DNA from: a virus
DNA: 21,974 nt
IMG/VR virus record: IMGVR_UViG_3300033571_007200
Span: 1-21,974 of that record
Reading direction: 5' to 3' (one strand)
The notes under the pieces are model-generated. The model was not told the origin of the DNA and made no database searches. It saw nothing but the letters and a program-made list of their open reading frames with translations. A program made the position numbers and the translations under genes. Numbering within the stretch: position 1 is the stretch's first letter; each line of letters begins with the position of its first letter. Shown here in pieces: positions 275 through 14,600 of the stretch.

Positions 275-303
275 TTGTTTTCTGTCCGAACTACCGATAA
301 AGT
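275..303 (+). promoter_or_regulatory. Conserved promoter element R1
   Basis: TTGTTT (275-280), a 17-bp spacer and TAAAGT (298-303) form a sigma70-like promoter. The spacer carries the block GTCCGAACTACCGA, which is shared with the elements at 2504, 2834, 4995 (minus strand) and 6653. The predicted leader is short and contains a perfect AGGAGGTG ribosome-binding site before the gene at 332. The conserved spacer suggests a bound regulator, since a plain promoter would not need it. Confidence 0.7.
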
Positions 304-331
304 GAAAGGGTGAGTGGGAGGAGGTGAAAAA

Positions 332-484
332 ATGAAAAACGATTTTCTTACGAAAGTGCTGGAGAGCCTAGCCAAAGTGGAAGACCAGCAAGCCAGCGGT
401 CACATCACCGAGGAGGAGGCAGAAGCACAAGAAGCGGAAATCTTGCAGGGTCTCCAAGAAGAAGTCTTGCGAAGCCACCGCTAG
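332..484 (+). CDS. Small acidic hypothetical protein (50 aa)
   Basis: The 50-residue ORF starts at ATG 332 and has an almost ideal Shine-Dalgarno sequence, GGAGGAGGTG (318-327), a few bases upstream. The protein is MKNDFLTKVLESL followed by a Glu/Gln-rich stretch, and it is predicted to be largely helical. It has no cysteines, membrane segment or recognisable domain. It forms a monocistronic unit, with promoter R1 before it and a strong terminator just after its stop. This promoter / small ORF / terminator layout recurs at 2834-3098, so it is probably a small early-expressed protein. The function is unknown. It is short but well supported by its expression signals. Confidence 0.75.
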   Translation: MKNDFLTKVLESLAKVEDQQASGHITEEEAEAQEAEILQGLQEEVLRSHR

Positions 485-498
485 GAACCCCCACGCAG

Positions 499-532
499 AG
501 ACCCACCTGTGCCCTCCGCAGGTGGGTCTTTT
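499..532 (+). terminator. Intrinsic terminator
   Basis: AGACCCACCTG (499-509) pairs perfectly with CAGGTGGGTCT (519-529) around a 9-base loop, and a TTTT tail follows. It ends the small transcript from 332. A diverged copy lies at 3063-3098, after the other small ORF. Confidence 0.9.
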
Positions 533-570
533 GCTGTCCCCCAACCCGAACGGAACGGCAAACGCTGGGC

Positions 571-582
571 TATGATGCATGC
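571..582 (+). promoter_or_regulatory. -10 box for leaderless helicase mRNA
   Basis: TATGAT (571-576) is followed by 6 bp and then GTG 583. Transcription starting about 7 bp after the -10 hexamer would begin at the start codon itself. No Shine-Dalgarno sequence is visible. Leaderless mRNAs are common in Actinobacteria, so this start is credible. The preceding 12 bp, AACGCTGGGCTA, recur at 3126-3137. Confidence 0.6.
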
Positions 583-2502
583 GTGAAACAACTCAAACTT
601 GACGACGACCACCTAGTTCTTGACTTTCCCTACGACCCAGCCGAGGTTGTGGAGGTAAAGAAGATAAAAGGTGCGAAGTGGGACAAAATCGCCCGTGTGT
701 GGCGAGCCCCGATGTCAAGTCTCGCGGAAGTCAGGCAGTTCGCACAGGAACATGGCTTTGATGTAGACGCAGAGGTACTGCTGTTTACATTGCCTCAACA
801 CAAGAACTCAGAACGGGGCATCCGCACGGACGGGAAGTGGCTAATAATGTCTTTTCCATACGAACGAGTCATGGTTCAGTCAGTCAAACAGGTTCCTGGA
901 GTTACATGGGACAAGAAGACTCTGGCGTGGCGAGCCCCGATGACCAGCATCGCCGAGGTCGTGAAGTGGGGAGACACTTTCAAGCAAACAGTTCCTGACG
1001 AAATCCGTGAGATGTTGGAAAAAATCAACAATTCGCTGTCGGAACTCAAAGACGCATCACGAATGACTGACGCTGACATTGAGGTCAAAGGGCTAAACGG
1101 GACTCTGCTCCCGTATCAGCGAGCAGGAGTTTCTTATGCAAGCAATGCACGAAGGACTTTCATCGCAGATGAGATGGGCTTGGGTAAAACGCTACAAGCC
1201 ATTGCGACATTGGAGTATGTCTACGATTCGTATCCAGCCGTCGTCGTGTGCCCCGCCACGCTCGTACTCAACTGGAAAGCAGAATACAACAGGTGGCTCC
1301 CACACAGGAAGGTCGCAGTAGTAAAAGACCGCAAAGAGTTTCCCTCTGACTATGATGTAGTCGTTATTGGTTATTCTAACATCAGTAAGTGGGAAAAACA
1401 ACTTCTGAACCACAAATCTTATGTGTTTGACGAAAGCCATTACTGCAAGACTCCAACAGCACAGCGAACCAAGAGTGCGGTGAAAATCGCCCGCTCAGCC
1501 CCGAAGAGCGGACTAGTTTTGTGCCTGACAGGAACTCCAGTTACGAACCGACCTGCTGAATACGCAAGCCAACTAAACATTCTTGGGCAACTTGACAAGT
1601 TTGGTGGGGAGTGGGGTTTCTACCGACGCTACTGCGGGGCCTTCAAGGACAAATGGGGGCAGTGGCATTTAGACGGACACAGCAATCTTGATGAACTCAA
1701 TGAGCGACTGCGCTCCACTTGCTACATCAGGCGTACAAAAGACCAAGTCCTTTCCGAACTGCCACCTGTCATTCACAACCCAGTTCTGGTTGACGGGACT
1801 GCCGCGGGCCTAAAGGAATACAAAAAAGCCGAAATTGACATCGTTGAGTACCTCGTTCAGCGAGCAAAGGAAATCGCTCAAGAACTTGGACTCAATCCAA
1901 ATTCTGAAGCGGTAAAAGCAAAGATACGAGCCGAGTCCAACCAACACCTTGTTCGCTTGTCTGTACTGCGCCGTCTATCAGCCAAAGCAAAAATGCCAGC
2001 AATCAAGGAGTGGGTGGAGTCCCGTGTGGCGGACGGCAAGAAAGTCGTCATTGCTGCACACCACAGAGATGTAGTGGACGAACTCGCACTTGCATTTGGC
2101 GACCTGCGTATTCAAGGTGGCATGGACATTGCTGACATTGAAGAACAGAAGCGCAAGTTTATTGAACTTCCATGTGAAGAAGCCCCAGTCATTGTTCTCT
2201 CAATCCAAGCGGCGAAAACGGGGCACAACCTGCAAGTTGCACAAGATGTTCTGTTCGTGGAACTTCCGTGGACGCCCGCTGATGTAGACCAAACTTATAG
2301 TCGCTGTCATAGGCTGGGGCAAAAGTCTTCCGTCACCGCTACTTATTTGTTATGTGACGGCACCATAGATGAGGACATCTACTCACTCATTGAGCGTAAG
2401 CGTGGTGTGGTGAATCAGGCTGTTGACGGCGGGGCCGCCGACGACGAGACGCATGGCGCACAGGAACTGCTGTTCAAGTATTTAGAAAAAAATATTCACT
2501 AG
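583..2502 (+). CDS. SNF2-family DNA helicase/annealing helicase with two HARP-like repeats
   Basis: The protein (639 aa) is a superfamily 2 ATPase. Seen motifs are PYQR (177-180), Walker A GLGKT (199-203), DEAH-type box DESH (283-286), a TGTPxxNRPxEY motif III, and motif VI QTYSRCHRLGQ (570-580), which is typical of SNF2/SMARCAL1 enzymes. The N-terminus carries two copies of a roughly 30-residue unit (about 14-43 and 89-119) of the form FPY...VK.i.G..WDK....WRAPM. This resembles the HARP domain of SMARCAL1, which anneals RPA-coated single strands. A role in remodelling or reannealing phage replication and recombination forks is inferred. GTG 583 is chosen because a -10 box lies 6 bp upstream (leaderless). 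Its stop is immediately followed by element R2. Confidence 0.88.
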   Translation: MKQLKLDDDHLVLDFPYDPAEVVEVKKIKGAKWDKIARVWRAPMSSLAEVRQFAQEHGFDVDAEVLLFTLPQHKNSERGIRTDGKWLIMSFPYERVMVQSVKQVPGVTWDKKTLAWRAPMTSIAEVVKWGDTFKQTVPDEIREMLEKINNSLSELKDASRMTDADIEVKGLNGTLLPYQRAGVSYASNARRTFIADEMGLGKTLQAIATLEYVYDSYPAVVVCPATLVLNWKAEYNRWLPHRKVAVVKDRKEFPSDYDVVVIGYSNISKWEKQLLNHKSYVFDESHYCKTPTAQRTKSAVKIARSAPKSGLVLCLTGTPVTNRPAEYASQLNILGQLDKFGGEWGFYRRYCGAFKDKWGQWHLDGHSNLDELNERLRSTCYIRRTKDQVLSELPPVIHNPVLVDGTAAGLKEYKKAEIDIVEYLVQRAKEIAQELGLNPNSEAVKAKIRAESNQHLVRLSVLRRLSAKAKMPAIKEWVESRVADGKKVVIAAHHRDVVDELALAFGDLRIQGGMDIADIEEQKRKFIELPCEEAPVIVLSIQAAKTGHNLQVAQDVLFVELPWTPADVDQTYSRCHRLGQKSSVTATYLLCDGTIDEDIYSLIERKRGVVNQAVDGGAADDETHGAQELLFKYLEKNIH

Positions 2503-2503
2503 G

Positions 2504-2532
2504 TTGTTATTTGTCTGAACCACCGATAAGGT
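2504..2532 (+). promoter_or_regulatory. Conserved promoter element R2
   Basis: TTGTTA (2504-2509), a 17-bp spacer containing GTCTGAACCACCGA, and TAAGGT (2527-2532). It begins one base after the helicase stop codon and leads, through a 27-base leader, to the small membrane-protein gene at 2560. Confidence 0.65.
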
Positions 2533-2559
2533 GATAACAAGACAAAGAAAGAGGGAAAC

Positions 2560-2682
2560 ATGGATTTGTCAATCAACATTCACCCAGCACTCGTAGTGGT
2601 GCTTGTAACTGCGTTTATCGCACTGCGTATCATGCGATTTGAGGTAAACAGCAAGCGTTTCAAGAAAAAACCGAAGGTCTGA
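2560..2682 (+). CDS. Small single-pass membrane protein (40 aa)
   Basis: The 40-residue ORF starts at ATG 2560, with GAGGGAAAC as a plausible ribosome-binding site just upstream. It has a short polar N-terminus, one hydrophobic segment (about residues 8-26, PALVVVLVTAFIALRIM) and a strongly basic tail ending KRFKKKPKV. The charge distribution suggests the tail faces the cytoplasm. It could be a holin-like, antiholin-like or superinfection-exclusion protein, but nothing in the sequence decides between these. It lies behind its own R2 promoter, between the helicase and the second regulatory cassette. Confidence 0.6.
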   Translation: MDLSINIHPALVVVLVTAFIALRIMRFEVNSKRFKKKPKV

Positions 2683-2686
2683 GAGG

Positions 2687-2704
2687 GCTTTCCGCCACCG
2701 TCAA
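2687..2704 (+). repeat. 18-bp repeat, copy 2 of regulatory cassette
   Basis: This copy is identical to 146-163. It starts four bases after the stop codon of the small membrane protein and opens the second cassette. Confidence 0.7.
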
Positions 2705-2725
2705 TAGATTTTAGCGCTATATGAC

Positions 2726-2756
2726 GGGCTGGTAGCCCAGCGTTTGTTTTTGCTTT
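2726..2756 (+). terminator. Possible weak terminator
   Basis: GGGCT (2726-2730) and AGCCC (2734-2738) form a short stem with a 3-base loop, followed by the T-rich stretch GCGTTTGTTTTTGCTTTTC. The stem is short, so termination may be partial. It would end the transcript carrying the small membrane protein. The rest of 2683-2833 shows nothing recognisable. Confidence 0.35.
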
Positions 2757-2833
2757 TCTAATGGGTTTCGTCTTGCTACTTAGTTAGTTTTTATACGCTA
2801 CTGACTAGTGTGACAAAGGACACATTTAGCAGG

Positions 2834-2862
2834 TTGTTTTTAGTCCTAACTACCGATACATT
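2834..2862 (+). promoter_or_regulatory. Conserved promoter element R3
   Basis: TTGTTT (2834-2839), a 17-bp spacer with GTCCTAACTACCGA, and TACATT (2857-2862). It is followed by a leader with GGAGGTGA before ATG 2896. An in-frame ATG at 2869 sits exactly 6 bp after the -10, so a leaderless longer form of the next protein is possible. Confidence 0.7.
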
Positions 2863-2895
2863 GAAGGTATGAGAGGGAACGGAGGTGAAAACAAG

Positions 2896-3042
2896 ATGAG
2901 CCCAAGATGGAACGATGATTCCTCTGACGATGGGTATGACGCCATGAAAGACGCATACCACGAAGGCTGGGGTCGCCCATACAACGACCGCACACGCCAA
3001 GAGTTAGAGGACGAGATTGAAGCGGAGCGAGACCGCTGGTAA
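2896..3042 (+). CDS. Small charged hypothetical protein (48 aa)
   Basis: The 48-residue ORF starts at ATG 2896 after a strong GGAGGTGA Shine-Dalgarno sequence. The protein begins MSPRWNDDSSDDGYDAMKDA and ends in an acidic/basic helix, RQELEDEIEAERDRW. It is rich in Asp, Arg, Tyr and Trp, with no Cys and no membrane segment. A leaderless in-frame start at 2869 would add nine residues (MRGNGGENK). Like the gene at 332 it is flanked by an R promoter and a strong terminator, so the two are positional counterparts, although their sequences are not visibly homologous. The function is unknown. Confidence 0.65.
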   Translation: MSPRWNDDSSDDGYDAMKDAYHEGWGRPYNDRTRQELEDEIEAERDRW

Positions 3043-3062
3043 CAGTCCCCCACACAACAGAG

Positions 3063-3098
3063 ACCCACCTGCTCCCCCCACTCAGGCAGGTGGGTTTT
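3063..3098 (+). terminator. Intrinsic terminator
   Basis: ACCCACCTGC (3063-3072) pairs perfectly with GCAGGTGGGT (3086-3095), and a TTTT tail follows. It is a diverged copy of the terminator at 499-532, including the flanking CAGAGACCCACCTG and GCTGTC sequences. Confidence 0.85.
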
Positions 3099-3155
3099 CT
3101 GCTGTCTGCCCCCAACGCAAAGCGAAACGCTGGGCTAATAAATCTGCTGGCGAAG

Positions 3156-3184
3156 TTGCTTATTCGGGTATTCCGTAGTATCCT
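3156..3184 (+). promoter_or_regulatory. Promoter of DUF932 gene
   Basis: TTGCTT (3156-3161), a 17-bp spacer and TATCCT (3179-3184). The leader ends with ribosome-binding site GGAAGG (3201-3206), seven bases before ATG 3214. The spacer lacks the conserved R block, so this looks like a different promoter class. Confidence 0.5.
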
Positions 3185-3213
3185 TTCTGATAAATCTAAC
3201 GGAAGGTTTAGAA

Positions 3214-4239
3214 ATGGCACACCAACTAGAACGAGACGCAATGGGCAGGGCGAAGATGGCTTACGCCGACAGGGAAATCCCGTGGCACAGACTCGGACAG
3301 CCAATGGCTGGGCTCCAGACAGCAGAAGCAATGCTTGTGGCGGCTCAAGCCGACTTTGATGTTGCACTCACGAAGGTAATCGCCGTTGATGACGACCTGA
3401 ACCCCCTCCGTAATCCCGACGGGAGCCCAGTCTTTATTGATGACAGCCGAGCCACAGTTCGCCTAAATCCAGACGGAACCATTGACGGTCTCTCAACGGT
3501 GGGAACACGCTTTGTCGTCCAACAGAACCGAGACTGCCTTGACCGTGCGTTGGCGATTGTCGGGGCCTCCTCGGGCGACGCAATCGTGGATACTTGTGGT
3601 GTGCTGAACGATGGTCGTGAGTTCTTTGCTTGCCTTGACTTGGGTGCGCTCATTATTGACCCGAACGGCATCAACGACAAAATTCAACGCTACCTGCTTG
3701 TGCGTAACGGACACGATGGTAAGACAGCCATTACCTATGCGAATACATCAATCCGAGCCGTCTGCAAGAACACGGTTGTTGCTGGGCTCAAGAGCGCAAA
3801 CGCAGTCTTCACAGCACGACACACACGCAACGCTGAAAGTGCTATTGAGGACGCAACCGAGGTGTTGAAACTCTCAACTGTTTGGGCAACCAACTTCAAC
3901 ATCGTTGCGACTCAACTTCTGTCAGTCCCGATTCTTGCAGGTTCTTCGCAACTTGACAAAGTCGTCAACACCGTCTTTCCTCACAGAAAAGATGAAACAG
4001 ATAGACAAAAGAAAAACATTGACGACATTCATTTGATGGTGCGTGGTTTGTATGTAAACGACAAGAACGCAGGTGGTTACGGTTTCAATGGTTGGTCTGC
4101 TTACAACGCAATCGGCGAATACTTAGACCATTATCGGGACGCCAAGCCGTACGAACGAGCAGTCGCATCAATGGACATCAACTCATGGGTAACACGCAAA
4201 AAGATAGAGGCACAGCAAACTATTCTTGCGTTGGCTTGA
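3214..4239 (+). CDS. DUF932 / TIGR03299 phage-plasmid protein
   Basis: The protein (341 aa) matches the pattern of the DUF932 family of phage and plasmid proteins. It has an N-terminal WHRLGQPM segment, a central GREFFACLDLG segment and the characteristic GHDGKTAITYANTSIRAVCKN stretch (split here: GHDGKTAITY then ANTSIRAVCKN), followed by a long helical C-terminal half. The length is normal for the family. Its biochemical role is not established. It usually sits among early replication and recombination genes, as here near a helicase, so a role in DNA metabolism is inferred. The start is supported by GGAAGG and the upstream promoter. The following gene begins 43 bp after its stop. Confidence 0.85.
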   Translation: MAHQLERDAMGRAKMAYADREIPWHRLGQPMAGLQTAEAMLVAAQADFDVALTKVIAVDDDLNPLRNPDGSPVFIDDSRATVRLNPDGTIDGLSTVGTRFVVQQNRDCLDRALAIVGASSGDAIVDTCGVLNDGREFFACLDLGALIIDPNGINDKIQRYLLVRNGHDGKTAITYANTSIRAVCKNTVVAGLKSANAVFTARHTRNAESAIEDATEVLKLSTVWATNFNIVATQLLSVPILAGSSQLDKVVNTVFPHRKDETDRQKKNIDDIHLMVRGLYVNDKNAGGYGFNGWSAYNAIGEYLDHYRDAKPYERAVASMDINSWVTRKKIEAQQTILALA

Positions 4240-4282
4240 CACCCCAAAGTGGGACAATGGTGATGACTACAATGGGGGTCGT

Positions 4283-4681
4283 ATGAGCGAGCCGTTTGAA
4301 GAACCAGAAGACCCGAAAGAAATGATGGCTGAGTTTCTCAGTCAATTCATGTCTTCAAGTTCGTCTGAATATTTGTATCGCAGACATTATTGCGATATAG
4401 TAGCCCACAAGGTCTACAACGAGTTCGGTATTGACGGAATGTGCGAACTCATGATGGCAATGGACAAGAGAGCCGACTGGATTTCTGACATCATCATTGA
4501 GGCACCTGACCTTGACAACATCGCTTTCAAGAAGTACGGGACTTTTGACCCAGAGTTGGCTACGAAGGCACGCCACACAAAGGCACTCCAAGAACTAAAC
4601 GAGAAACTGTGGCGGCTCAGGCGCAAGTACGCACGACTCATTGTTGATGAAATCATGAGCCCTGAGGAAGAAGAAGTCTAA
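4283..4681 (+). CDS. Hypothetical acidic helical protein
   Basis: I chose ATG 4283, which gives 132 aa starting MSEPFEEPEDPKEM, over an upstream in-frame TTG at 4226. The longer N-terminus looks non-native and would overlap the DUF932 gene without a ribosome-binding site. A TACAAT hexamer (4268-4273) lies 9 bp before the ATG, and a GGGGG run may act as a weak ribosome-binding site. The protein is mostly helical and ends in an acidic tail (SPEEEEV). It has no recognised domain; the sequence YRRHYCDIVAHKVYNEFGID might be a small helical core. It lies three bases upstream of the next gene and is probably co-transcribed with it. The function is unknown. Confidence 0.75.
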   Translation: MSEPFEEPEDPKEMMAEFLSQFMSSSSSEYLYRRHYCDIVAHKVYNEFGIDGMCELMMAMDKRADWISDIIIEAPDLDNIAFKKYGTFDPELATKARHTKALQELNEKLWRLRRKYARLIVDEIMSPEEEEV

Positions 4682-4684
4682 AAA

Positions 4685-4990
4685 GTGACAATTCCCTACA
4701 TTCTGCGCTCTGGTGATGTAGCCCCGTTTCCAGGAACAGGCGAAGAAGCCGATGAAAACCTTTTGACGCACAGGTGGGAGCAAATTCCAGAGGATTTTCA
4801 GCCGTCAATCCCAAAGGCGTGGGCAGAAGCAACTGGAATCACATCTTTTCCCAAGAACACACTCAAATGCACGGTGTGTGGTGCTAAGTGGTTTAGCCAG
4901 CAGAGTTATTATCCGTGTGGCAAAGAGGTTCGTCTGACTGAACGACTTGAACTTCCTCATATGCCAGGAAAGCCAAAGTATTCCTCATAA
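4685..4990 (+). CDS. Hypothetical protein with zinc-ribbon-like Cys pairs
   Basis: GTG 4685 lies three bases after the preceding stop, so translational coupling is likely. The protein has 101 aa. The N-terminal half is Pro/Glu-rich and unlike any family I recognise. The C-terminal half has CTVCGAKW and a single later PCG (Cys-x2-Cys followed by one Cys), which could be an incomplete zinc knuckle or ribbon. It is the last rightward gene before a convergent minus-strand block, and its stop lies five bases from element R4. The function is unknown. Confidence 0.7.
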   Translation: MTIPYILRSGDVAPFPGTGEEADENLLTHRWEQIPEDFQPSIPKAWAEATGITSFPKNTLKCTVCGAKWFSQQSYYPCGKEVRLTERLELPHMPGKPKYSS

Positions 4991-4994
4991 GTTC

Positions 4995-5023
4995 AATGTA
5001 TCGGTAGTTGATACAAAAAACAA
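4995..5023 (-). promoter_or_regulatory. Conserved element R4, in convergent gap
   Basis: Read on the minus strand: TTGTTT (5023-5018), a 17-bp spacer containing ATCAACTACCGA, and TACATT (5000-4995). It fills almost the whole gap between two convergent genes, starting one base after the stop of the zinc-ribbon gene. It therefore points into the 3' end of the plus-strand gene with no evident gene to drive. It may make an antisense RNA, or act as a repressor-binding 'stoperator' like those of mycobacteriophage L5. Confidence 0.55.
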
Positions 5024-5024
5024 C

Positions 5025-5219
5025 TTATCTCGGATATTTTTCTCTGATACTTTCCCAATTATCGCCGAAAAGAACTTCAACTTTTTCGTGGCAGACGGGG
5101 CAACGAGGAACTCGTCCGTCCATAAAGTGCGATGGAACATCACCACATTCACATCTGTAAATTACTTCCAGACCCCACTCACGCTTCAGGCTTTCACGAG
5201 ATGTCTTACTTGCTTCCAC
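5025..5219 (-). CDS. Small zinc-ribbon protein
   Basis: The protein has 64 aa with two CxC/CxxC pairs, CECG and CPVCHEK, separated by about 15 residues. This is a classical rubredoxin-like zinc ribbon that probably binds one zinc ion. GTG 5219 is preferred because GGAAGG lies six bases upstream. A longer frame opens at ATG 5255 (76 aa) but lacks a ribosome-binding site. Either way the gene overlaps the end of the lysin gene (by 14 or 50 bp), indicating co-transcription and translational coupling. Small zinc ribbons of this kind are frequent in phage genomes and have no specific known job. A DNA or protein contact role is possible. Confidence 0.7.
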   Translation of the reverse strand: MEASKTSRESLKREWGLEVIYRCECGDVPSHFMDGRVPRCPVCHEKVEVLFGDNWESIREKYPR

Positions 5220-6189
5220 TGGTTCCCTTCCAATGTCCAATGCCACCATTGTCATAGAGGTACTTCGCCACCATCAAGTTGCATGACGGGGCAGTCAGCG
5301 ATTTGATTAGTTGGCGATAAGGGCGATTACACACCTGAGCAGTCACCGTTTTCCAACCACTGTTGATTTGCAACAAACCAGTGTCATAAGAGCGCACGGC
5401 AGAGCAGTATCTGTAAGTTTCAGCAGGAGAAAGTCGGCAATCACGATGCGACTTGCCCCGCTTGTAATTCCAGCCGATTGCCTTTGGGATACAACGGCTT
5501 TCACGCCACATGATGTAAGAGAACTCTTTGACAGGAAGTCCATATTTCTTCAGCAGACCTTCGTACTGTGGACACGACTTGTCTGTACTTAGCGATTGAG
5601 ACGAAACTCGCCCAGATGAATTGCGAGATTCTTTCCACTCAGCCATTCCTTTTTCCGTGTATCTCGTTCTAGACGGTTTGCGTGTTTTCCAATTGACACA
5701 ACCCTTGCCCCAGTTCTGCATACTTCTCCAACCAACTGCTGGTCGGAAGTACGGCTTGTCATCAATCTTGTCCTGCAGAGTCCCGTAGATATTCTTCGTT
5801 TGGAAACCGAAAAAAGCGGCACGGTTCGCAATGATGATTTGTTCATGCTTAGTTGCTTTTGATGGGCGAGGAGCAAATTGACGACCACCGTAGTTACGCC
5901 ACACCGACTGCGCTATGCCAAGACCACCCGAGTAGTAGCCACCGTCATTCCACTTATGATTGGTCTCACACCAAGAGACTGCTTCCCAAAAGGCAATAGA
6001 ACCGCCCTTTTTTGACCTAAGTTGATACACCAACTCTGGATGCATTCCCGTGAGCGACATTGTCTTCACTTCGGGACTCGTGGGCGCTGTAGTGGTCGGA
6101 GGTGAATCCGTAGCCTCGGCTTTCGTCGTCATTCCTAAAAAGGAAACAATAGATAGAGAGATAGCCAAAAGGCGTACGGGGTGTTTCAA
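5206..6189 (-). CDS. Secreted two-domain peptidoglycan glycosidase (Rpf-like + SLT-like lysin)
   Basis: The protein has 327 aa. Residues 1-26 form a signal peptide (KHPVRLLAISLSIVSFLGM, then an AEA cleavage-like site), followed by a Thr/Pro-rich linker. Domain 1 (about 65-165) resembles the resuscitation-promoting-factor transglycosylase fold: WEAVSWCETNHKW, with E75 as likely catalytic acid, then YYSGGLGIAQSVW. Domain 2 (about 204-320) resembles lysozyme/soluble lytic transglycosylase: MWRESRC with E230, and GLLQINSGW at 271-279. Many cysteines suggest disulfides and extracytoplasmic action. It probably cleaves host cell-wall glycan during lysis. The start is TTG 6189 with AGGAG eight bases upstream. 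Among phage early genes this reverse-strand position is unusual. Confidence 0.88.
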   Translation of the reverse strand: MKHPVRLLAISLSIVSFLGMTTKAEATDSPPTTTAPTSPEVKTMSLTGMHPELVYQLRSKKGGSIAFWEAVSWCETNHKWNDGGYYSGGLGIAQSVWRNYGGRQFAPRPSKATKHEQIIIANRAAFFGFQTKNIYGTLQDKIDDKPYFRPAVGWRSMQNWGKGCVNWKTRKPSRTRYTEKGMAEWKESRNSSGRVSSQSLSTDKSCPQYEGLLKKYGLPVKEFSYIMWRESRCIPKAIGWNYKRGKSHRDCRLSPAETYRYCSAVRSYDTGLLQINSGWKTVTAQVCNRPYRQLIKSLTAPSCNLMVAKYLYDNGGIGHWKGTSGSK

Positions 6190-6310
6190 GAGTTTCTCCT
6201 GTGGTCGGCGGATAGGTCAACAAGCAAATAACATGCGCTTGCCTATGTCGTCGTCAGTCTCTAACTGAACACTTCTATTTTACAACTTTGAGCGACGGTC
6301 ACAACCATCA

Positions 6311-6373
6311 GGAAACCCTTGCTACATAAGGGTTTTAGAAGGCGACCCTCGGAAACCCTTGCTACATAAGGGT
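6311..6373. repeat. Twin 23-bp hairpin repeats
   Basis: Two exact 23-bp copies (6311-6333 and 6351-6373, 40-bp period) each contain the inverted repeat ACCCTTGCTACATAAGGGT, a 6-bp stem with a 7-base loop. In copy 1 the stem extends to AAACCCTT/AAGGGTTT and ends in TTTT, so it could terminate either strand. They lie between the stop of the acidic gene and the lysin start. Tandem terminators or a paired operator are both possible. Confidence 0.7.
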
Positions 6374-6377
6374 CAAA

Positions 6378-6647
6378 TCAGGGGTTCGCTTCCAAAAAAT
6401 CTGTAATGTATTTTTCTGGGTCAATAAGTGCGAAATCAGCAGTAAAAGTGACCCCATTTTCGCTATTTGAGGGCTTGAAACCCATTGAATCCAGAAGATG
6501 CCCCGCGATTTCGGCGAAATCCTCAAGCATTTCCTCTTCTTCTTCCTTGGAGACCTCGTCAATATCAAGGTCAGCCATCTCAAGAAGCATCTTCGCCATG
6601 TGGTCAATAACAACAAGGCGTATTTCAAATTCGTTTTTCTGTGTCAT
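6378..6647 (-). CDS. Small acidic hypothetical protein
   Basis: The protein has 89 aa and is strongly acidic, with a run SKEEEEEMLEDFAEIAGHLL in the middle. It is predicted to be mostly helical, with no cysteines or membrane segment. No family is recognised. A TACAAT -10 lies 9 bp before ATG 6647, with TTGAAC 17 bp further upstream, so it has one of the best promoters in the window and a very short leader without a Shine-Dalgarno sequence. That promoter is superimposed on the rightward ssb promoter. Acidic phage proteins of this size are sometimes DNA mimics or inhibitors, but nothing here proves that. Confidence 0.7.
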   Translation of the reverse strand: MTQKNEFEIRLVVIDHMAKMLLEMADLDIDEVSKEEEEEMLEDFAEIAGHLLDSMGFKPSNSENGVTFTADFALIDPEKYITDFLEANP

Positions 6648-6652
6648 AGGAG

Positions 6653-6681
6653 TTGCATTGTATCCGAACCACTGATAAAGT
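6653..6681 (+). promoter_or_regulatory. Conserved promoter element R5 (ssb)
   Basis: TTGCAT (6653-6658), a 17-bp spacer with ATCCGAACCACTGA, and TAAAGT (6676-6681). It gives a 40-base leader to ssb with GGAGA as ribosome-binding site. Confidence 0.65.
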
Positions 6682-6685
6682 TCAA
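6657..6685 (-). promoter_or_regulatory. Divergent promoter over R5
   Basis: On the minus strand, TTGAAC (6685-6680), a 17-bp spacer and TACAAT (6662-6657) form a near-consensus promoter for the acidic gene at 6647. It overlaps R5 almost completely, so one bound protein in the shared spacer would affect both directions. Confidence 0.65.
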
Positions 6686-6721: not shown

Positions 6722-7153
6722 ATGGCAATTACCCCGACATCAATTGTGGGAAACCTCACATCAGACCCCGAGTTGAAGTACACAACCAATCAGAAGGCTC
6801 AGTTGAAGTTTTCTATTGCAGTGAATGACAACTACACAGACGCATCAGGCGAGAAGGTTGAAAAGACTTCTTACTTCAATGTTGTGGCTTGGGGATACCT
6901 CGCTGAGAACTCAGCAAATGTCCTTGAAAAGGGAATGGGCGTAGTAGTGGTCGGGACTCTTGACCAGCGCTCTTGGGAAGACAAAGACAGTGGACAGAAG
7001 CGTTCAACTGTTGAAATCAAGGCAATGGAAATCGGCATTCGCACAGGCTCACTTGAGTCAGTAGAGCGTCGCCGTGCAAACGGTGGAGATTCTTCCTCAA
7101 AGCCAACACCCCCACGCACAAAGCAAACAGTTCCAGCAGACGAACCTTTCTAG
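6722..7153 (+). CDS. ssb: Single-stranded DNA-binding protein
   Basis: The protein has 143 aa. An OB-fold SSB (about 1-112) is shown by IVGNLTSDPELKY, KFSIAVNDNY, TSYFNVVAWGYLAENSANVL, KGMGVVVVGTLDQRSW and RSTVEIKAMEIG. A flexible Ser/Pro-rich tail follows and ends DEPF, a short version of the acidic tip by which SSB recruits replication and repair partners. ATG 6722 is chosen over the upstream frame start at 6653 because it has GGAGA upstream and the normal SSB N-terminus. It coats single-stranded phage DNA during replication. It has its own promoter (R5) and terminator, so it is a monocistronic unit ahead of the primase-helicase operon. Confidence 0.95.
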   Translation: MAITPTSIVGNLTSDPELKYTTNQKAQLKFSIAVNDNYTDASGEKVEKTSYFNVVAWGYLAENSANVLEKGMGVVVVGTLDQRSWEDKDSGQKRSTVEIKAMEIGIRTGSLESVERRRANGGDSSSKPTPPRTKQTVPADEPF

Positions 7154-7650: not shown

Positions 7651-8013
7651 GTGGAGCAAGGCGATTTCTCACCAGAGAATGGCAACTGCAAGGGGTATCC
7701 AACAGAGTGGTGGTATCCGTTACAAAAGACTGGTAAACGAGAAGAAGTCGTTGAACTCCGAAAAAACACAGCGCAAGCAAAAACGATTTGCGCTACTTGC
7801 CCAGACAAAGTAGAGTGTCTTGAATACTCACTGAAGTGGGAACCGTGGGGTATTTGGGGTGGTAAAGATGAACAAGAGCGAGCACAACTTCGCTGGTCAA
7901 AACAAGTTCATCTTGGTCGTGAAGGTCGCATTGTTTTCAAAGGAATTGGACTGCGTGACGCCAATGGTGGAGAATTCCTAAAGAAAACCGTCTACGACAA
8001 TGACTTCGTCTAA
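7651..8013 (+). CDS. WhiB-family iron-sulfur transcription factor
   Basis: The protein has 120 aa. Four cysteines C13, C47, C50 and C56 (C-x33-C-x2-C-x5-C) are the ligands of the WhiB [4Fe-4S] cluster. The following GIWGG (67-71) is the family turn that contacts the primary sigma factor. Basic residues after it (RWSKQ, GREGR) may bind DNA. WhiB-like proteins are confined to Actinobacteria and their phages. The phage member WhiBTM4 of mycobacteriophage TM4 represses host whiB2, so a role in reprogramming the host is a fair inference. The start is GTG 7651 after AGGAGG. Its end overlaps the primase-helicase start by 14 bp. Confidence 0.93.
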   Translation: MEQGDFSPENGNCKGYPTEWWYPLQKTGKREEVVELRKNTAQAKTICATCPDKVECLEYSLKWEPWGIWGGKDEQERAQLRWSKQVHLGREGRIVFKGIGLRDANGGEFLKKTVYDNDFV

Positions 8014-9715
8014 GCACACAGAAGAGTTCCTATCTCGCCTAAAAGGTGTTACCGAAACAGGTAACGGCTGGGAAGCACGCTGTCCGTGTCGCAATGATGA
8101 TGAGAACCCATCTCTTTCTATCTCTGAAGACGACAGGAATGGGAACATTCTCGTTACTTGCCATCGGGGCTCACCATGTTCTTCAAAAGAGATTTGCGAA
8201 TCAATGGGATTGACACAAGCCGCATTGTTTCCTCCACAAAAACGCACCAAAGAAAAACTTGAACTCGTCAAGACATATGACTATACTGATGAGCAAGGAG
8301 AACTTCTTTTTCAGAAACTTCGTTATGTAGACGGAAGTGGAAAGAAGACATTTCGCCAACGCAAACCCGATGGTCATGGTGGTTGGGAATACTCGCTCGG
8401 TGATACACCAAAGGTTCTTTACAATCTTCCAGCAGTTCGCAAGGCTGTCACAGATGGATACCCGATTTGGGTAGTTGAGGGAGAGAAAGACGCAGACACC
8501 CTCATGAAGATGGGGATTATTGCGACAACAATGCCAGGTGGTGCAGGTAAGTGGTTGCAAATCCACACGAACGCACTCGCAGGTGGAACAGTTGTTGTAG
8601 TCGCAGACAACGATGAACCAGGAATGGCTCACGCAAAAGTTGTCGTAGAAGAACTATCCAAAGCAGGGTGTGATGTATCTGCTTGGCGTACACCGCAGTG
8701 CAAAGATGTAACAGATTTCCTCGCTGTTGATGGAGACCTTGATGACTTGTTGCTGATTGAAGACTACGCCACACCTGCCCCGCAGGTGGCGGAAGAGCAA
8801 CCAACAGAAAGTCCGTTTGACGAAGCGAGGCAGAAACTTGAGCAGTTGCTATTACGCAATGACCTCAGTCCACAGCAGATTGTTACAAAAGCACACGACA
8901 TTGCACTCGCAGTTGGTCGTGAGAAGCCACTTGACTTCGGCAGATTGGTTACATGGCAGGAGTTCGTCAAGGAAAGTACCGATGACTCATACGACTGGGT
9001 TATTGACGGCTTGATTGAACGCACTGAACGAGTAATCGTTGTGGCGGCTGAAGGTGTTGGTAAGACCATGTTGGCTAGACAGATTGCCATTCTCTCAGGA
9101 TGTGGAGTACACCCGTTCACATATCAGCGCATGAAGCAAATCCGTACACTCACAGTGGACCTTGAGAACCCAGAACGCATCATTCGTCGTACTTCACGCA
9201 ACATCTACGAGACTGCTGTAGCACGGGGCTACACGAACTCGCCGACAGCAGAACTTCTGACCAAGCCATCAGGATTTGACTTGATGAAGCCAGAGGATAG
9301 ACAAGCGCTGGAACAGGCGATTGAAGACTCAAAACCCGAACTGCTTGTGATGGGTCCTTTGTATAAAGCATTCGTAGACCCAGGTGGTCGCACGGCAGAA
9401 GCAGTTGCCATTGAAGTTGCCAAGTATCTTGACTATGTACGAGACACATACAAGTGCGCACTGTGGTTAGAACATCACGCTCCATTGGGAGAGAGTATGA
9501 CTAATCGTCAGTTGCGTCCGTTCGGCTCCGCCGTGTGGTCCCGTTGGCCAGAGTTCGGCATCTCGCTCACACCAGACATTTCTGCTGGAGTTGCATACTG
9601 TTACGATGTCAAGCATTTCCGAGGTGCTCGTGACGATAGGCCTTGGCCTACTAGAATTAGGAGAGGGAAACTATTCCCCTTTGAGGTCATTGAGTACGCT
9701 AAGGTAAATAAATGA
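8000..9715 (+). CDS. Bifunctional DNA primase-helicase
   Basis: The protein has 571 aa. The N-terminal zinc-binding part has C28, C30, C54 and C60 in a CHC2-like arrangement. A Toprim domain follows, with the catalytic glutamate in VVEGEKDA (E160) and the DxD pair in VADNDEPG (D203, D205). The C-terminal half is a RecA-like (AAA_25/RepA-type) ATPase with Walker A EGVGKT (351-356), VDLEN (386-390) and a Walker B-like LLVMGPLY (448-455). This combines primer synthesis with helicase loading or unwinding, as in T7 gp4-type and phage RepA-like proteins. ATG 8000 overlaps the WhiB gene, and the stop overlaps the next start as ATGA, indicating coupling within one operon. Confidence 0.9.
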   Translation: MTSSKHTEEFLSRLKGVTETGNGWEARCPCRNDDENPSLSISEDDRNGNILVTCHRGSPCSSKEICESMGLTQAALFPPQKRTKEKLELVKTYDYTDEQGELLFQKLRYVDGSGKKTFRQRKPDGHGGWEYSLGDTPKVLYNLPAVRKAVTDGYPIWVVEGEKDADTLMKMGIIATTMPGGAGKWLQIHTNALAGGTVVVVADNDEPGMAHAKVVVEELSKAGCDVSAWRTPQCKDVTDFLAVDGDLDDLLLIEDYATPAPQVAEEQPTESPFDEARQKLEQLLLRNDLSPQQIVTKAHDIALAVGREKPLDFGRLVTWQEFVKESTDDSYDWVIDGLIERTERVIVVAAEGVGKTMLARQIAILSGCGVHPFTYQRMKQIRTLTVDLENPERIIRRTSRNIYETAVARGYTNSPTAELLTKPSGFDLMKPEDRQALEQAIEDSKPELLVMGPLYKAFVDPGGRTAEAVAIEVAKYLDYVRDTYKCALWLEHHAPLGESMTNRQLRPFGSAVWSRWPEFGISLTPDISAGVAYCYDVKHFRGARDDRPWPTRIRRGKLFPFEVIEYAKVNK

Positions 9716-10317
9716 GCGAACAACGCAACAACAAGGTGATGACTAAGGAATACCTTGCTGAAAGAGACTTGCGCATTTTCAAGATGCGTCAGGCTGGCGT
9801 TGCCGTAGCAGAGATTGCGAGAAGATTTGACATTTCTTCTGCCTCTGTTAACAGAGCAGTACAAAGACAGTTGGAGAAACTGAACAGGGAAGCACTAATG
9901 GCTTACCCAGAAGTCCTCCGCATGGAACTGGAACGCTTGGACAATCTACAAGCAGCCATTTGGCCTCTGACACAGCATCGCAAGGTCAAGATGGACGACG
10001 GGACTGAGGTGGCCGTTGAACCCGACCTCAAGGCGATTCAGCAGGTTCTGTCAATCATGGACAGGCGCACCAAGTTGCTTGGCATGGAAGCAACGAACAT
10101 CAATGTGCAGATGGATGTGCGTGGTAGCGAGACAGTCAAGTCAAGCCTCGCTGGAGAGACCAATCAGGCAGCGGCTATTGACGCATTTGACCCAGAGACA
10201 GAAGCGAGAAAACTACTGGAACTCATGGGCGCATCTGGAGTCTTGCCTCCATCTACTGTTGCTGGTATTCTTGGCGAAGCACCGATACAAGACGCAGAGA
10301 TAGTTGAAAATGAGTGA
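9712..10317 (+). CDS. Terminase small subunit-like HTH protein
   Basis: The protein has 201 aa. Residues about 20-57 form a helix-turn-helix (MRQAGVAVAEIARRFDISSA). A long helical region follows, whose LKAIQQVLSIMDRRTKLLGM resembles the IMxRRxKLLG segment of many phage small terminase subunits. The C-terminal tail is acidic. The family role is recognition of phage DNA for packaging; a plain DNA-binding regulator is the alternative. No large terminase was found in the window, which leaves the call open. It starts inside the primase stop (ATGA) and overlaps the next gene by 8 bp. Confidence 0.6.
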   Translation: MSEQRNNKVMTKEYLAERDLRIFKMRQAGVAVAEIARRFDISSASVNRAVQRQLEKLNREALMAYPEVLRMELERLDNLQAAIWPLTQHRKVKMDDGTEVAVEPDLKAIQQVLSIMDRRTKLLGMEATNINVQMDVRGSETVKSSLAGETNQAAAIDAFDPETEARKLLELMGASGVLPPSTVAGILGEAPIQDAEIVENE

Positions 10318-10627
10318 CGAACAAGAACTAGACAATCTAGTTTCAGCAATAGCAAGAGAAGCCGAGTCTAAGGATAAGGCTGTTTCCAACGAGATTTCAC
10401 CCGAAGATGGTCCCGCTGACAAGAACATCCTCATCCGTCTGACAGAAAAAGATAGAGAGAGATGGAAGGAAGCCGCAGAGAAGATGGGCTTGACCGTTTC
10501 TCAGATGATTAGAGACACTGTGAATGCCAAGGTCACCGATGTCATTGACTGTTCGCATCCAATCAATCAACGCAGATACTACCCGTGGTCGGAGTTCTGC
10601 CTTGCTTGTGGAACGAGACTCCGTTGA
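10310..10627 (+). CDS. Ribbon-helix-helix protein with C-terminal zinc knuckle
   Basis: The protein has 105 aa from ATG 10310 (a TTG at 10304 is less likely). The N-terminal 40 residues are acidic and disordered. Residues about 40-75 (NILIRLTEKDRERWKEAAEK then MGLTVSQMIRDTVNAKV) are a typical CopG/Arc-like ribbon-helix-helix DNA-binding domain. A short C-terminal zinc site follows: C81, H83, C97, C100 (CSH ... CLAC). RHH proteins usually dimerise and bind operator DNA, so this is a candidate regulator of the phage operons. The RHH plus zinc knuckle fusion is uncommon. It overlaps both neighbouring genes. Confidence 0.75.
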   Translation: MSDEQELDNLVSAIAREAESKDKAVSNEISPEDGPADKNILIRLTEKDRERWKEAAEKMGLTVSQMIRDTVNAKVTDVIDCSHPINQRRYYPWSEFCLACGTRLR

Positions 10628-10976: not shown

Positions 10977-11638
10977 TCTCTGGCTCGGCGCGAAGCATTC
11001 TCTGCACTTCGTGTATTTGCAACAAACTGATTGCCCGCCCGACTTCCAATGATTTTCTTACGATTTGTCGCTGCCCTCTGCGATGGCGTAAGTTTGCTCC
11101 AAGCACTAGCAGGCAAGTAGCGGCGAGTGCCACCTTTACGAATCGCTGGTTTACCATCCGATGTAGTCCACTTCTCTCGTGTCCACTTCTTCAGTGAACG
11201 CTGTGTCTTGCGCAAGCCACCTCTGTACCCGCCTCCAGCCTTACGGTACTCCATTGCGAGCAACTGTGCTTTACGAGCGGACCACTGACCTGGTCTGCCA
11301 CCCTTGCTACCAGCCATAATTCTGTTCTTGATGCGCTCACGCAACTCAGGCTTTGTGTAGTTCAGAGACTTGATGTCAAATGACGGGGCGTCATTGATGA
11401 ACGACTTTGTTGACAATTCCACCCAAGCGACTGTTTTGCCACGCACTTCCCTGTCCTGCTTTGGTGCTTCTTCCCAATAGCCACGAGATAGGACCGCATC
11501 AATGTCAACTTCCAACTTGATGTCTGAATCACCCTTGGAGATGTAGCCCATTCGTGTAACAATGCCAGGCACAGGGCTGATGTCATGGGTGTAGAAAAGG
11601 CGGTCATTGCCACGAACTGCTATCAACTCTTCTCTCAT
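10973..11638 (-). CDS. DUF5872-like basic protein, coupled to giant gene
   Basis: The protein has 221 aa and a very basic C-terminal half. Residues about 97-140 contain IMAGSKGGRPGQWSARKAQL and EYRKAGGGY, a block I associate with actinobacterial and phage proteins. Residues about 150-205 (KKWTREKWTT ... RRYLPASAWSKLTPSQRAA) match the DUF5872 pattern seen in viruses. The acidic/beta-rich N-terminus (1-95) is unassigned. Its charge suggests DNA or RNA binding, possibly a virion or packaged protein. ATG 11638 overlaps the TGA of the giant gene (ATGA), so it is translated from the same mRNA. Confidence 0.75.
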   Translation of the reverse strand: MREELIAVRGNDRLFYTHDISPVPGIVTRMGYISKGDSDIKLEVDIDAVLSRGYWEEAPKQDREVRGKTVAWVELSTKSFINDAPSFDIKSLNYTKPELRERIKNRIMAGSKGGRPGQWSARKAQLLAMEYRKAGGGYRGGLRKTQRSLKKWTREKWTTSDGKPAIRKGGTRRYLPASAWSKLTPSQRAATNRKKIIGSRAGNQFVANTRSAENASRRARD

Positions 11639-14600
11639 GCGACCACCTTAACTGGTTCCTGTGACTGCGCCACAACTTCTACTGGCGGTTCTGGGATTGC
11701 CTGCCCACCGTTCCATGTGTCAGCAATCTCGCCGTCTCTCACTGGGACTACCCGTATGCCAACATTTGCGAGCATTCCACTGATTGATTCAAATTCCTCT
11801 TGTGAAATCTTGTTGTTTCGCCAATCATTTATGTCTGGTTCACCGACATTGACAACTACATAGTCAACATCCGAAAGGCTGAGCCCACCGTGTATTTGTG
11901 CTTCTGCGTACATTGTTTCCCCGACCTTACCAGAAGCGTCCTTGCTCGGAACCCCCATAGGCGCAGGGGTGAGACCAGAAGACAGGCTGTCATGGGTTGT
12001 GTATGTAGAACGTGAATGCGAATCTCTTTTAAGAATAAACTGGAGTTCACCATACTGCTTAATGCTTCCAAGCATGTTTCTGTCAATGGTCCCACCAGAT
12101 GTTAGATACCCATAAACGGGGCGCATCTCTGGAGCAGTGTCTGGGTGGTACCCAAACTGTGCAATATCACCAGTTATTCTTCCTTCTGGATGTAGTGCGC
12201 CACGAGAAGTTTTTGTCTCAAACTGCGTCTTAAACCGCCCATCTTCTATCAATTTCGCAAGAAGGTCTTTAGGGAAAGCGACTGCGATATCTGCTTTATC
12301 AAGAGCATCTACTGAGTGTTGAAGCCTCGCTTCGTCTCCTAATGTGCTTTCTTGGCTGTATTGACCACTGATGAAATATGAAATATAAACGGAAAGATGG
12401 TCTGATATTGCTCTTCTAATTCTTGTTTCAGTTTCATCATCAAATCCAAGTTCTTTTAACTCATCTCGCATAATTCTGTTGAGGGGGGTTAAATCAACAA
12501 ACTGAAAGAGAAGTTCATTGCGTATTTTATTTGACGCTTGTATTGCGTCTTTTTCTTCATCAGAATAAGGTGGTGTCGGGTCTCTATCCCAGATTTCCTG
12601 ATAGCGCTTTCTCAATTCCTTCGCTTCCTCAAGGTTTCTCATCTGCTGTTCTAAGACTGCATCATATTCTGCTTGCGTCTTAGGCGGGAGTGTTCCTGGA
12701 CGGAACATGTTCACTGGGCGACCAGTTCTCTTTGCTTCCTCAATGTCGTCAGTAGGAGTAAGTTGCGTACTAGCAAGACCACTACGGCTCTTCTTGTCTG
12801 TCGCTTCTTTTCTCAATTCACTGAGTTCAGCGTCAATCATTGCGAGTGTTTCTCTTTTTGCTTGTTCAACCAAACTGGCTACATCTTCTGGTTTTGCTTC
12901 CAGAAGTCTTTTTTCAAGTTCTGGAGAAAAAGATGTCTGAAACTTACCGTTTTGTACATCTATTCTTCTTTGCATAAGCAGTGCCTCCATAGGCGTAGCA
13001 CCTGCTCTCAAATCTGCTGGTCCGACATCTGGGAAGGCTTTCGGGTTAACCTCAGTTATGTATGTTGCAGTCATTGCTGGGTTAAACATCTCAACCCTGT
13101 CAACAGAGAAGTTTGAGCCAGAATTAAGGTCAGCGACTACTAGGTCAACATCATTATCTGCTTTTAATTTTCTGCGCATTTTGCTTGCTTCAACTAGCGC
13201 TCTAGCGTCAGAATCAAATGGCTCTCCATTATAAGCGCCAACAACAATGCTTCCGTCCCCTCTAACTACAAGACCAACTTGTCTGTCTTTTGGCAAAAAT
13301 GAGTTTGGATTAGTGACTATTGCCTGAACTTCATCAAGCGTAAAAGAGCCAGCGACAAGCGCTTCATTGTAGAAGAGACCATCAGCCCTTGATGGACTCA
13401 TCATTGACTGACCAGAGTCAACGGTGTCGTTCCAAAGCATCTGTGGCATACCACCAACACCCTTGCCGTAACTCAAACCATTTGCATCTCTTCCAAGCAT
13501 TTCTGATGTAATAATTGCTTTTGGATTTCCAGATGCGCTATCGGCATTCGTGAACAATGAGCGTTCAGCAAGTTCTGCCCTAAGAATAATAGAACTCCTG
13601 CCATAACTATTCTCTCTATCAAGAGTCCAAGAATCATCAACTGGTTGACCGATTGTGTAAGGGTGGATAACTTCAACATCGTCACCATAGATTCCCTGTA
13701 ACCCAGACTCTCTTTGTCTGCCAAGTGATTCGTTTTGGATTAAGCCAGAGGCAGGGCGAAGGTCTTTGTATGGGTCTTCGGGGCTTCCACTCTGTATGTT
13801 CGGGATTCCGAAATTCTCTTCAACATTTCTTCTGAGTTGTCTTACATCTGCTCTCGCTACACCACCAGCATCGGCAACGCCCATTCTCTCGTCATAGTCG
13901 TGTTGCGTAAGGTATCTTCCGTTTTCTATTAGACCAAGAGGGTTATTCATCATAACCTTTACTCTTCTGTCCATAGAGTTACCAAAATTATTGCTCGCAT
14001 CAACGACTGCTTGTGCGTACTCTTCTGGTGTTGCGTTATTGATAAAGTCTATGTAATCGTCAATTCTTGCGACTTTTTCTGTATCTCCAGAGGCTATTGC
14101 TAGTTCTCTTTCAATCTTAATTGGCGCAGACCAATCGGAACCAGTGTAAAAGACTGTTCCATCAGACTCTTTAAGGTCTTTAGGATTTATGCCAAACAGT
14201 GTTGAAATAAGTGGTCTATTATTTCTAACGCTATTCACTCCATTTTTAGAGACAGCATCAGACAATGATTGTCTAGCATTACTGTCTAGGTCTTTAATTG
14301 AAGAAACTTGCTCTTTTAATACCGAAAGTTCACGACCAGCATTATCTCTAACTATCTTCTCAGAACCAGTATCTTTTGCTGAATCAAACCACCCAGTAGA
14401 CTCTTTTAGTCTAGCAACTATGCTTTGATTTCTTTCTGATGTTGAAGCAAGACCTCTACGACTTGCTTTGTCTGCCTCAACCACCTCTGCAAGCCAACCC
14501 TGCCATGTGCTCTGTGCCGAACCTGGCTGATGACCCCTGTTTTGATGTGTTTCTACAGACAATGATGCGACTGGAGTGTGCTGTCCGATGATATGTACTT

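Follow-up and report, generated by a model that had tools for sequence, protein, structure and literature searches.

Arrays of predicted promoters with a lineage-specific spacer block in uncultured, probably actinobacterial phages

Five promoter-like elements in a viral contig form the last part of a long array of predicted viral promoters that are nearly identical to one another. The 3' 11 bp of their spacer are common to one genome and differ between lineages, also at orthologous promoters. The reading that we favor, with a probability of roughly 60%, is that these are host sigma-A-type promoters whose spacer is also the operator of one phage-wide factor, most likely a repressing one.

The window, that is, the whole stretch of DNA analyzed, comprises the 21,974 bases of a single virus record in IMG/VR (IMGVR_UViG_3300033571_007200, positions 1 to 21,974). 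A sequence-only reading had described five elements in it, each with TTGnnn, 17 bp, and TAnnnT, and a conserved block within the spacer. All five are present at the positions and on the strands described, and TCCGAACTACCGATA with at most 3 mismatches matches exactly these five places, compared with 0.32 matches expected (0 of 100 shuffles reach 5). Since the loose TTG..TAnnnT pattern alone occurs at 22 places, only about twice the expectation of ~10, it is the spacer that defines the set. A matrix built from the five sites scores 41.8 to 54.4 on these, its own training sites; apart from these, its top match in the window is site 5 read in reverse complement, at 12.7, followed by one at 2.5, and no score in 20 shuffles exceeds 13.7. 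All strong spacer matches in the window sit with a -35 and a -10. The elements and the genes around them are as follows.

275..303, plus strand, predicted array promoter 1: TTGTTT-17-TAAAGT; spacer core 287-297 CGAACTACCGA
332..484, plus strand, small gene behind promoter 1; 50 aa, beginning MKNDFLTKVLESL
583..2502, plus strand, SNF2-type helicase gene, used for finding relatives
2504..2532, plus strand, predicted array promoter 2, directly after the helicase gene: TTGTTA-17-TAAGGT; spacer core 2516-2526 TGAACCACCGA
2560..2682, plus strand, small gene behind promoter 2, preceded by a leader and an SD; its 40-aa product is predicted to be hydrophobic
2834..2862, plus strand, predicted array promoter 3: TTGTTT-17-TACATT; spacer core 2846-2856 CTAACTACCGA
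2869..3042, plus strand, small gene (57 aa), predicted leaderless; its ATG is placed exactly 6 nt past the promoter 3 -10, with a second in-frame ATG at 2896
4995..5023, minus strand, predicted array promoter 4: TTGTTT-17-TACATT; leftward, antisense to gene 4685-4990
6653..6681, plus strand, predicted array promoter 5, in front of the SSB gene 6722-7153: TTGCAT-17-TAAAGT; spacer core CGAACCACTGA
6657..6685, minus strand, inverted promoter-like twin, overlapping promoter 5 and facing the minus-strand gene 6378-6647: TTGAAC-17-TACAAT

At promoter 1, a GTG lies exactly 6 nt after the -10 and opens a 5-codon frame that ends at the SD region of gene 332-484, and at promoter 4, a 31-codon frame begins 6 nt after the -10. 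Leaders are present at promoters 2 and 5. The counterpart of promoter 2 in relatives lies at the same place and has another spacer, and the place of promoter 4 holds a site of the same orientation in three related loci (L009, L012, and L026). Promoter 5 is the weakest of the five sites. Twins similar to that at 6657-6685 occur in L008, L009, L024, L026, and L066, and the SSB gene and gene 6378-6647 may share a bidirectional promoter made up of promoter 5 and its overlapping twin. Elsewhere in the window, the minus strand holds a 3263-codon gene (11635-21426) with a NUDIX domain and a DUF3626 match.

To place the elements in a wider setting, relatives were collected via the SNF2 helicase; the array genomes are uncultured IMG/VR records that may be incomplete. 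A 31.9-kb contig (G001, locus L008) that is near-identical to the window, with a 100% identical helicase, extends past the left end of the window and carries 23 elements; the five in the window are the last of these. Between 16 and 38 elements per genome are found in 15 contigs, some of them near-duplicates, representing about a dozen relatives beside the near-identical contig. The arrays run through the small-gene early region with a median element spacing of ~475 to 690 bp in four contigs, and in long contigs they run outwards both ways from a divergent center (near 100.6 kb in G014 and near 30.3 kb in G013). In the helicase-relative loci, which come partly from overlapping or near-duplicate records and thus do not represent independent events, GGTTG-N20-TAnnnTG occurs 197 times, compared with 0 to 12 times at 13 other spacings. 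Sought with this anchor, no array was found in G015 (119 kb, with a helicase ~67% identical to that of G014) or in more distant, mostly GC-richer relatives. Three genomes (G006, G008, and G009) have the same -35 and spacing with CATAAT as the -10, and look arrayless if a TAnnnT-type -10 is required. A helicase search of reference genomes returned no relative, hence no host or prophage; the probable hosts are actinobacteria. Most array phages also keep a trio of right-arm genes (L073, 3673-6439) that encode a winged-helix protein, a MoxR-like AAA ATPase, and a 485-aa protein; the winged-helix protein has no match in G015.

The elements (GGTTGT, 17 bp, TAnnnT or CATAAT) look like host sigma-A-type promoters, and would be recognized by host sigma-A. 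The distance between -35 and -10 at which the matches are concentrated, ~17 bp, is that of sigma-A (sigma-70) promoters. The -35, TTGTnn, is an imperfect match to TTGACA, the CATAAT of some lineages departs from the sigma-A consensus, and AGG is conserved just upstream of the -35. At 185 of 258 sites in ten contigs, an ATG or GTG follows the -10 at exactly 6 nt; the next commonest start-codon offset within 20 nt accounts for 24 sites. Frames that begin at start codons 5 to 7 nt after the -10 have a median length of 74 codons. Because the start codon sits where transcription from a sigma-A promoter would start (6 to 8 nt downstream of the -10), this positional evidence suggests that most array promoters would make leaderless mRNAs, which are common in actinobacteria. 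Behind one array promoter, a leader, TATCGGTAAAGGACACCGAG(G)TGGAAACCAAAGACTGAG, is strongly conserved (~22040-22080 in G001, L085-L086, and also in G014, G013, G011, and G007) and is possibly an RNA element. A second repeat family, CTTTCCGCCACCGT, often followed by GATTAGAAACAC, lies in the window at 148-160 and 2689-2701; it usually has 3 to 7 copies in larger related contigs, many of them shortly upstream of array promoters, and an Rfam search with it returned no match.

Within each genome, the 11-bp spacer core holds ~13 to 15 bits of information, compared with ~5 to 8 in the -35 and ~5 to 9 in the -10. Each lineage has ~14 bits in this core and its own consensus, as listed here.

Lineage A (window type): ACTACCGA
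Lineage B: CCTACTACCGA
Lineage C: CTTACTACCCA
Lineage D: CTAATAAGCC
Lineage E: CTAATAGCC
Lineage F: CTAATAACGGA
Lineage G: TTATAACCGA
Lineage H: CTTACAAGG
Lineage I: CTTACAAGCC

Lineages H, I, and J have CATAAT as the -10. The same core module, CTTAC-N5-ATA, is displaced by 2 bp away from the -35 in lineages with a CATAAT -10, H and I among them, as would be expected if the module were a site of its own. By eye, the spacer consensus shows no consistent dyad. Relatives without spacer conservation at the same sites would have counted against the proposal that a regulator binds here; instead, the relatives carry a different spacer that is conserved across their own genome, which strengthens the proposal.

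Orthologous promoters allow similarity within a genome to be set against similarity by descent. Genome-specific matrices favor within-genome similarity; indeed, sites selected with them give a core identity of 0.75 within genomes and 0.45 between orthologues, a contrast inflated by the selection. Site choice was therefore based on three features outside the spacer: the -35, the start codon, and the final T of the -10. With one genome per lineage, cores at these sites have an identity of 0.61 if they come from the same genome, compared with 0.51 for orthologous promoters and 0.38 for unrelated ones. The core is closer to its own genome in 51 of 68 orthologous pairs, a consistent but moderate contrast in which the pairs share genomes and so are not independent trials. 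Downstream, the relation is reversed: the leader has an identity of 0.50 within genomes and 0.64 between orthologues (own genome closer in 19 of 68 pairs), and the coding sequence has 0.31 and 0.51 (11 of 68). Across 12 genomes, spacer-free sites give a core identity of 0.62 within genomes and 0.46 between orthologues of different lineages. At one promoter shared by G001, G014, G013, and G011, a closely similar downstream leader follows four different spacers. These comparisons indicate that the spacer block alone evolves in concert within a genome. Recent duplication or gene conversion of promoter cassettes, with no binding factor involved, would also produce similarity within a genome. However, copying would carry the flanks along, and similarity beyond the element was looked for within genomes and is absent, the far upstream flank (0.31) and the coding sequence (0.31) being at background where the core reaches 0.61; we regard this explanation as extremely improbable. 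Since the core is alike within a genome while leader and coding sequence show the reverse, the pattern points to a trans-acting factor with shifting specificity as the simplest account.

We infer such a factor, its encoding by the phage, and the sign of its action, and propose the following scheme. The array promoters would be of the host sigma-A type and mostly leaderless, and would drive small early genes and several replication genes singly. The 11 bp just upstream of the -10 would also be the operator for one trans-acting factor, most likely phage encoded, which would control the whole promoter set at once. It would most likely block RNA polymerase, so that early genes are shut off later in infection, and in each lineage its specificity and all its sites would have shifted together. 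Repression is favored over activation because the promoters, with their optimal 17-bp spacing, look competent and bound polymerase would cover the block. Early-gene shut-off is our leading guess, and would be a natural role in phages in which no lysogeny genes were found. In 16 records, which may be incomplete, there is no tyrosine integrase, and an HTH_3 (CI-like) repressor is absent family-wide and present only in G016/G017. A ParB_N domain protein is encoded in G014.

The spacer might instead match a factor, or an extended -10 preference, of the actinobacterial host of each lineage, with no phage regulator at all. The lineages may differ in host, and the core adjoins the -10, so part of it could indeed be an extended -10 preference. 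To our knowledge, however, ~14 bits over 11 bp, in a core whose distance from the -35 differs by 2 bp between groups of lineages, exceeds known extended -10 preferences. Further, orthologous promoters match each other in the -35 at least as well as promoters of one genome do, but less well in the core. Host adaptation is quite unlikely. Recognition of the array by a phage-encoded sigma factor would fit the very uniform -35, and Microbacterium phages of clusters EC and EI that encode a sigma factor have repeated intergenic motifs (PMC7302621). A sigma-70 region 2 (Sigma70_r2) match is nevertheless lacking in all 16 records, including contigs of 118, 119, and 132 kb, although these records may be incomplete, and we consider this reading very improbable. 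The main alternative, although unlikely, is a phage activator bound at the spacer, perhaps together with a phage WhiB protein acting on region 4 of sigma-A at the -35. The promoters would then be weak alone and need that activator, which the imperfect -35 (TTGTnn), the CATAAT -10 of lineages H, I, and J, and the conserved AGG would also fit. A search of 30 phage records found WhiB genes in 29, and every array genome has one. They are also found in G015, however, where no array was found; the spacing is an ordinary 17 bp, and the WhiB-like gene of the mosaic phage described below does not track the spacer.

Returning to the favored reading of a repressing, phage-wide factor, we examined which protein might read the spacer. 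Conservation of the spacer beyond promoter function (~14 bits per 11 bp, compared with ~7 bits in the -35) makes it a probable regulator site, as the sequence-only reading had proposed, but the two candidates that it named, an RHH and a WhiB protein, are not supported. The proteins concerned are these.

7651..8013, plus strand, WhiB-like protein, earlier candidate, unsupported as specificity factor
9712..10317, plus strand, protein with a sigma-4/NarL-like HTH; probably a small terminase, and a weak candidate for reading the spacer
10310..10627, plus strand, RHH protein, earlier candidate, unsupported as specificity factor

Locus L021 is a mosaic with an H-like helicase, I-like WhiB, primase, and RHH genes, and H-like spacers. 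Its RHH and WhiB genes thus follow one lineage and its spacers another: both genes are of the type found with GCC-spacer phages and its own spacers are of the GGC type, an argument that rests on one base difference in one phage. The beta-strand contacts of the window's RHH protein, as inferred by alignment to Arc, are also constant within the superclasses A-C, D-G, and H-J, in which the spacers change. Three other proteins were rejected as well. A second RHH protein of the right arm (L073:11248-11589) has the same inferred contacts in C and F and in B and H, where spacers differ; the recognition helix of the winged-helix protein (L073:3673-4194) is nearly invariant across lineages; and the helix of a MarR-like protein (L073:14415-14882) is nearly conserved. 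A scan of gene-family distance against spacer distance was exploratory (38 families, uncorrected) and was not used as proof.

The HTH protein at 9712-10317 is an unlikely reader of the spacer, with evidence on both sides. In its conserved region, variability peaks in the recognition helix (residues 42-48), at 3.1 distinct residues per column, compared with 1.4 to 1.8 in helix 1 and residues 49-126, and its helix types mostly match the spacer types over ~40 loci. Within residues 10-65, the L021 protein departs from the I type at one position, 33, and the spacer of that phage has GGC in place of GCC. The correlation of helix and spacer is confounded by phylogeny, however, and lineages D and G have the same contact residues and different spacers. 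In Gordonia phage Jace, the gene for a homologue is followed directly by that for the large terminase, and in a fold search small terminase ranks first, albeit weakly (model pLDDT 70, pTM 0.37; none below E 0.001). If the protein is a small terminase, varying packaging sites would explain the variable recognition helix.

The array resembles known phage-wide systems but belongs to none of the families compared. The nearest are the repressor sites of L5-clade mycobacteriophages and the C1 operators of phage P1, with which it shares many oriented, mostly asymmetric copies and a genome-wide, lineage-specific consensus. Many P1 C1 operators overlap sigma-70 promoters, and we know of no fixed spacer position for them in a promoter array. 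P1, a temperate phage of Enterobacteria with a known repressor, has 22 dispersed, asymmetric 17-bp C1 operators with the consensus ATTGCTCTAATAAATTT (PMC8546580). L5-clade (cluster A) phages have 20 to 30 asymmetric operators or stoperators per genome, oriented with transcription, and their consensus is common within a genome and varies between phages along with the repressor (PMC6550527, PMC9283540). Stoperators lie mostly outside promoters and stop elongation, whereas every array site lies inside a -35/-10 pair at fixed spacing, although this difference in location depends on array sites having been defined with a -35 and a -10. The L5-clade phages are also temperate with a known repressor, in contrast to the array phages, in whose 16 records neither a tyrosine integrase nor a family-wide repressor was found.

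Motifs of mycobacteriophage clusters K and O and of Microbacterium phage clusters EC and EI are looser analogues (PMC3203893, PMC4351075, PMC7302621). The SAS/ESAS of cluster K are repeated, oriented motifs before many small genes, with an ESAS consensus that differs between subclusters (PMC3203893), and cluster EC phages have an 18-bp asymmetric motif at 12 copies per genome (PMC7302621). SAS are located at ribosome binding sites, and ESAS form inverted repeats, whereas the array motif spans the -35 to the -10 of a mostly leaderless start; the passages cited describe no promoter geometry or leaderless start for SAS/ESAS or the cluster EC motif. Cluster O mycobacteriophages have predicted leaderless SigA promoters and more than 30 repeat copies per genome, but their repeat is a 17-bp palindrome that lies mostly apart from the 8-9 promoters and is identical in all five phages (PMC4351075).

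If a phage regulator acts at many matched sites, a new specificity requires joint change of the protein and all those sites, and how this happens is a question studied mainly in the temperate cluster A mycobacteriophages. The arrays may, tentatively, extend it to a virulent phage family in which one phage factor would read the spacers of nearly every early gene and would have changed its specificity repeatedly, together with its 16 to 38 sites. Each lineage would thereby possess a private control channel that co-infecting relatives could neither use nor silence. With at least nine lineages, spacer swaps at orthologous promoters, and mosaics such as L021, the family is a data set for locating the factor by comparison. 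A further use of the arrays is in annotation, since they mark early genes and the exact codons at which these begin; in uncultured phages such as these, probably of actinobacteria, gene starts are difficult to call by other means.
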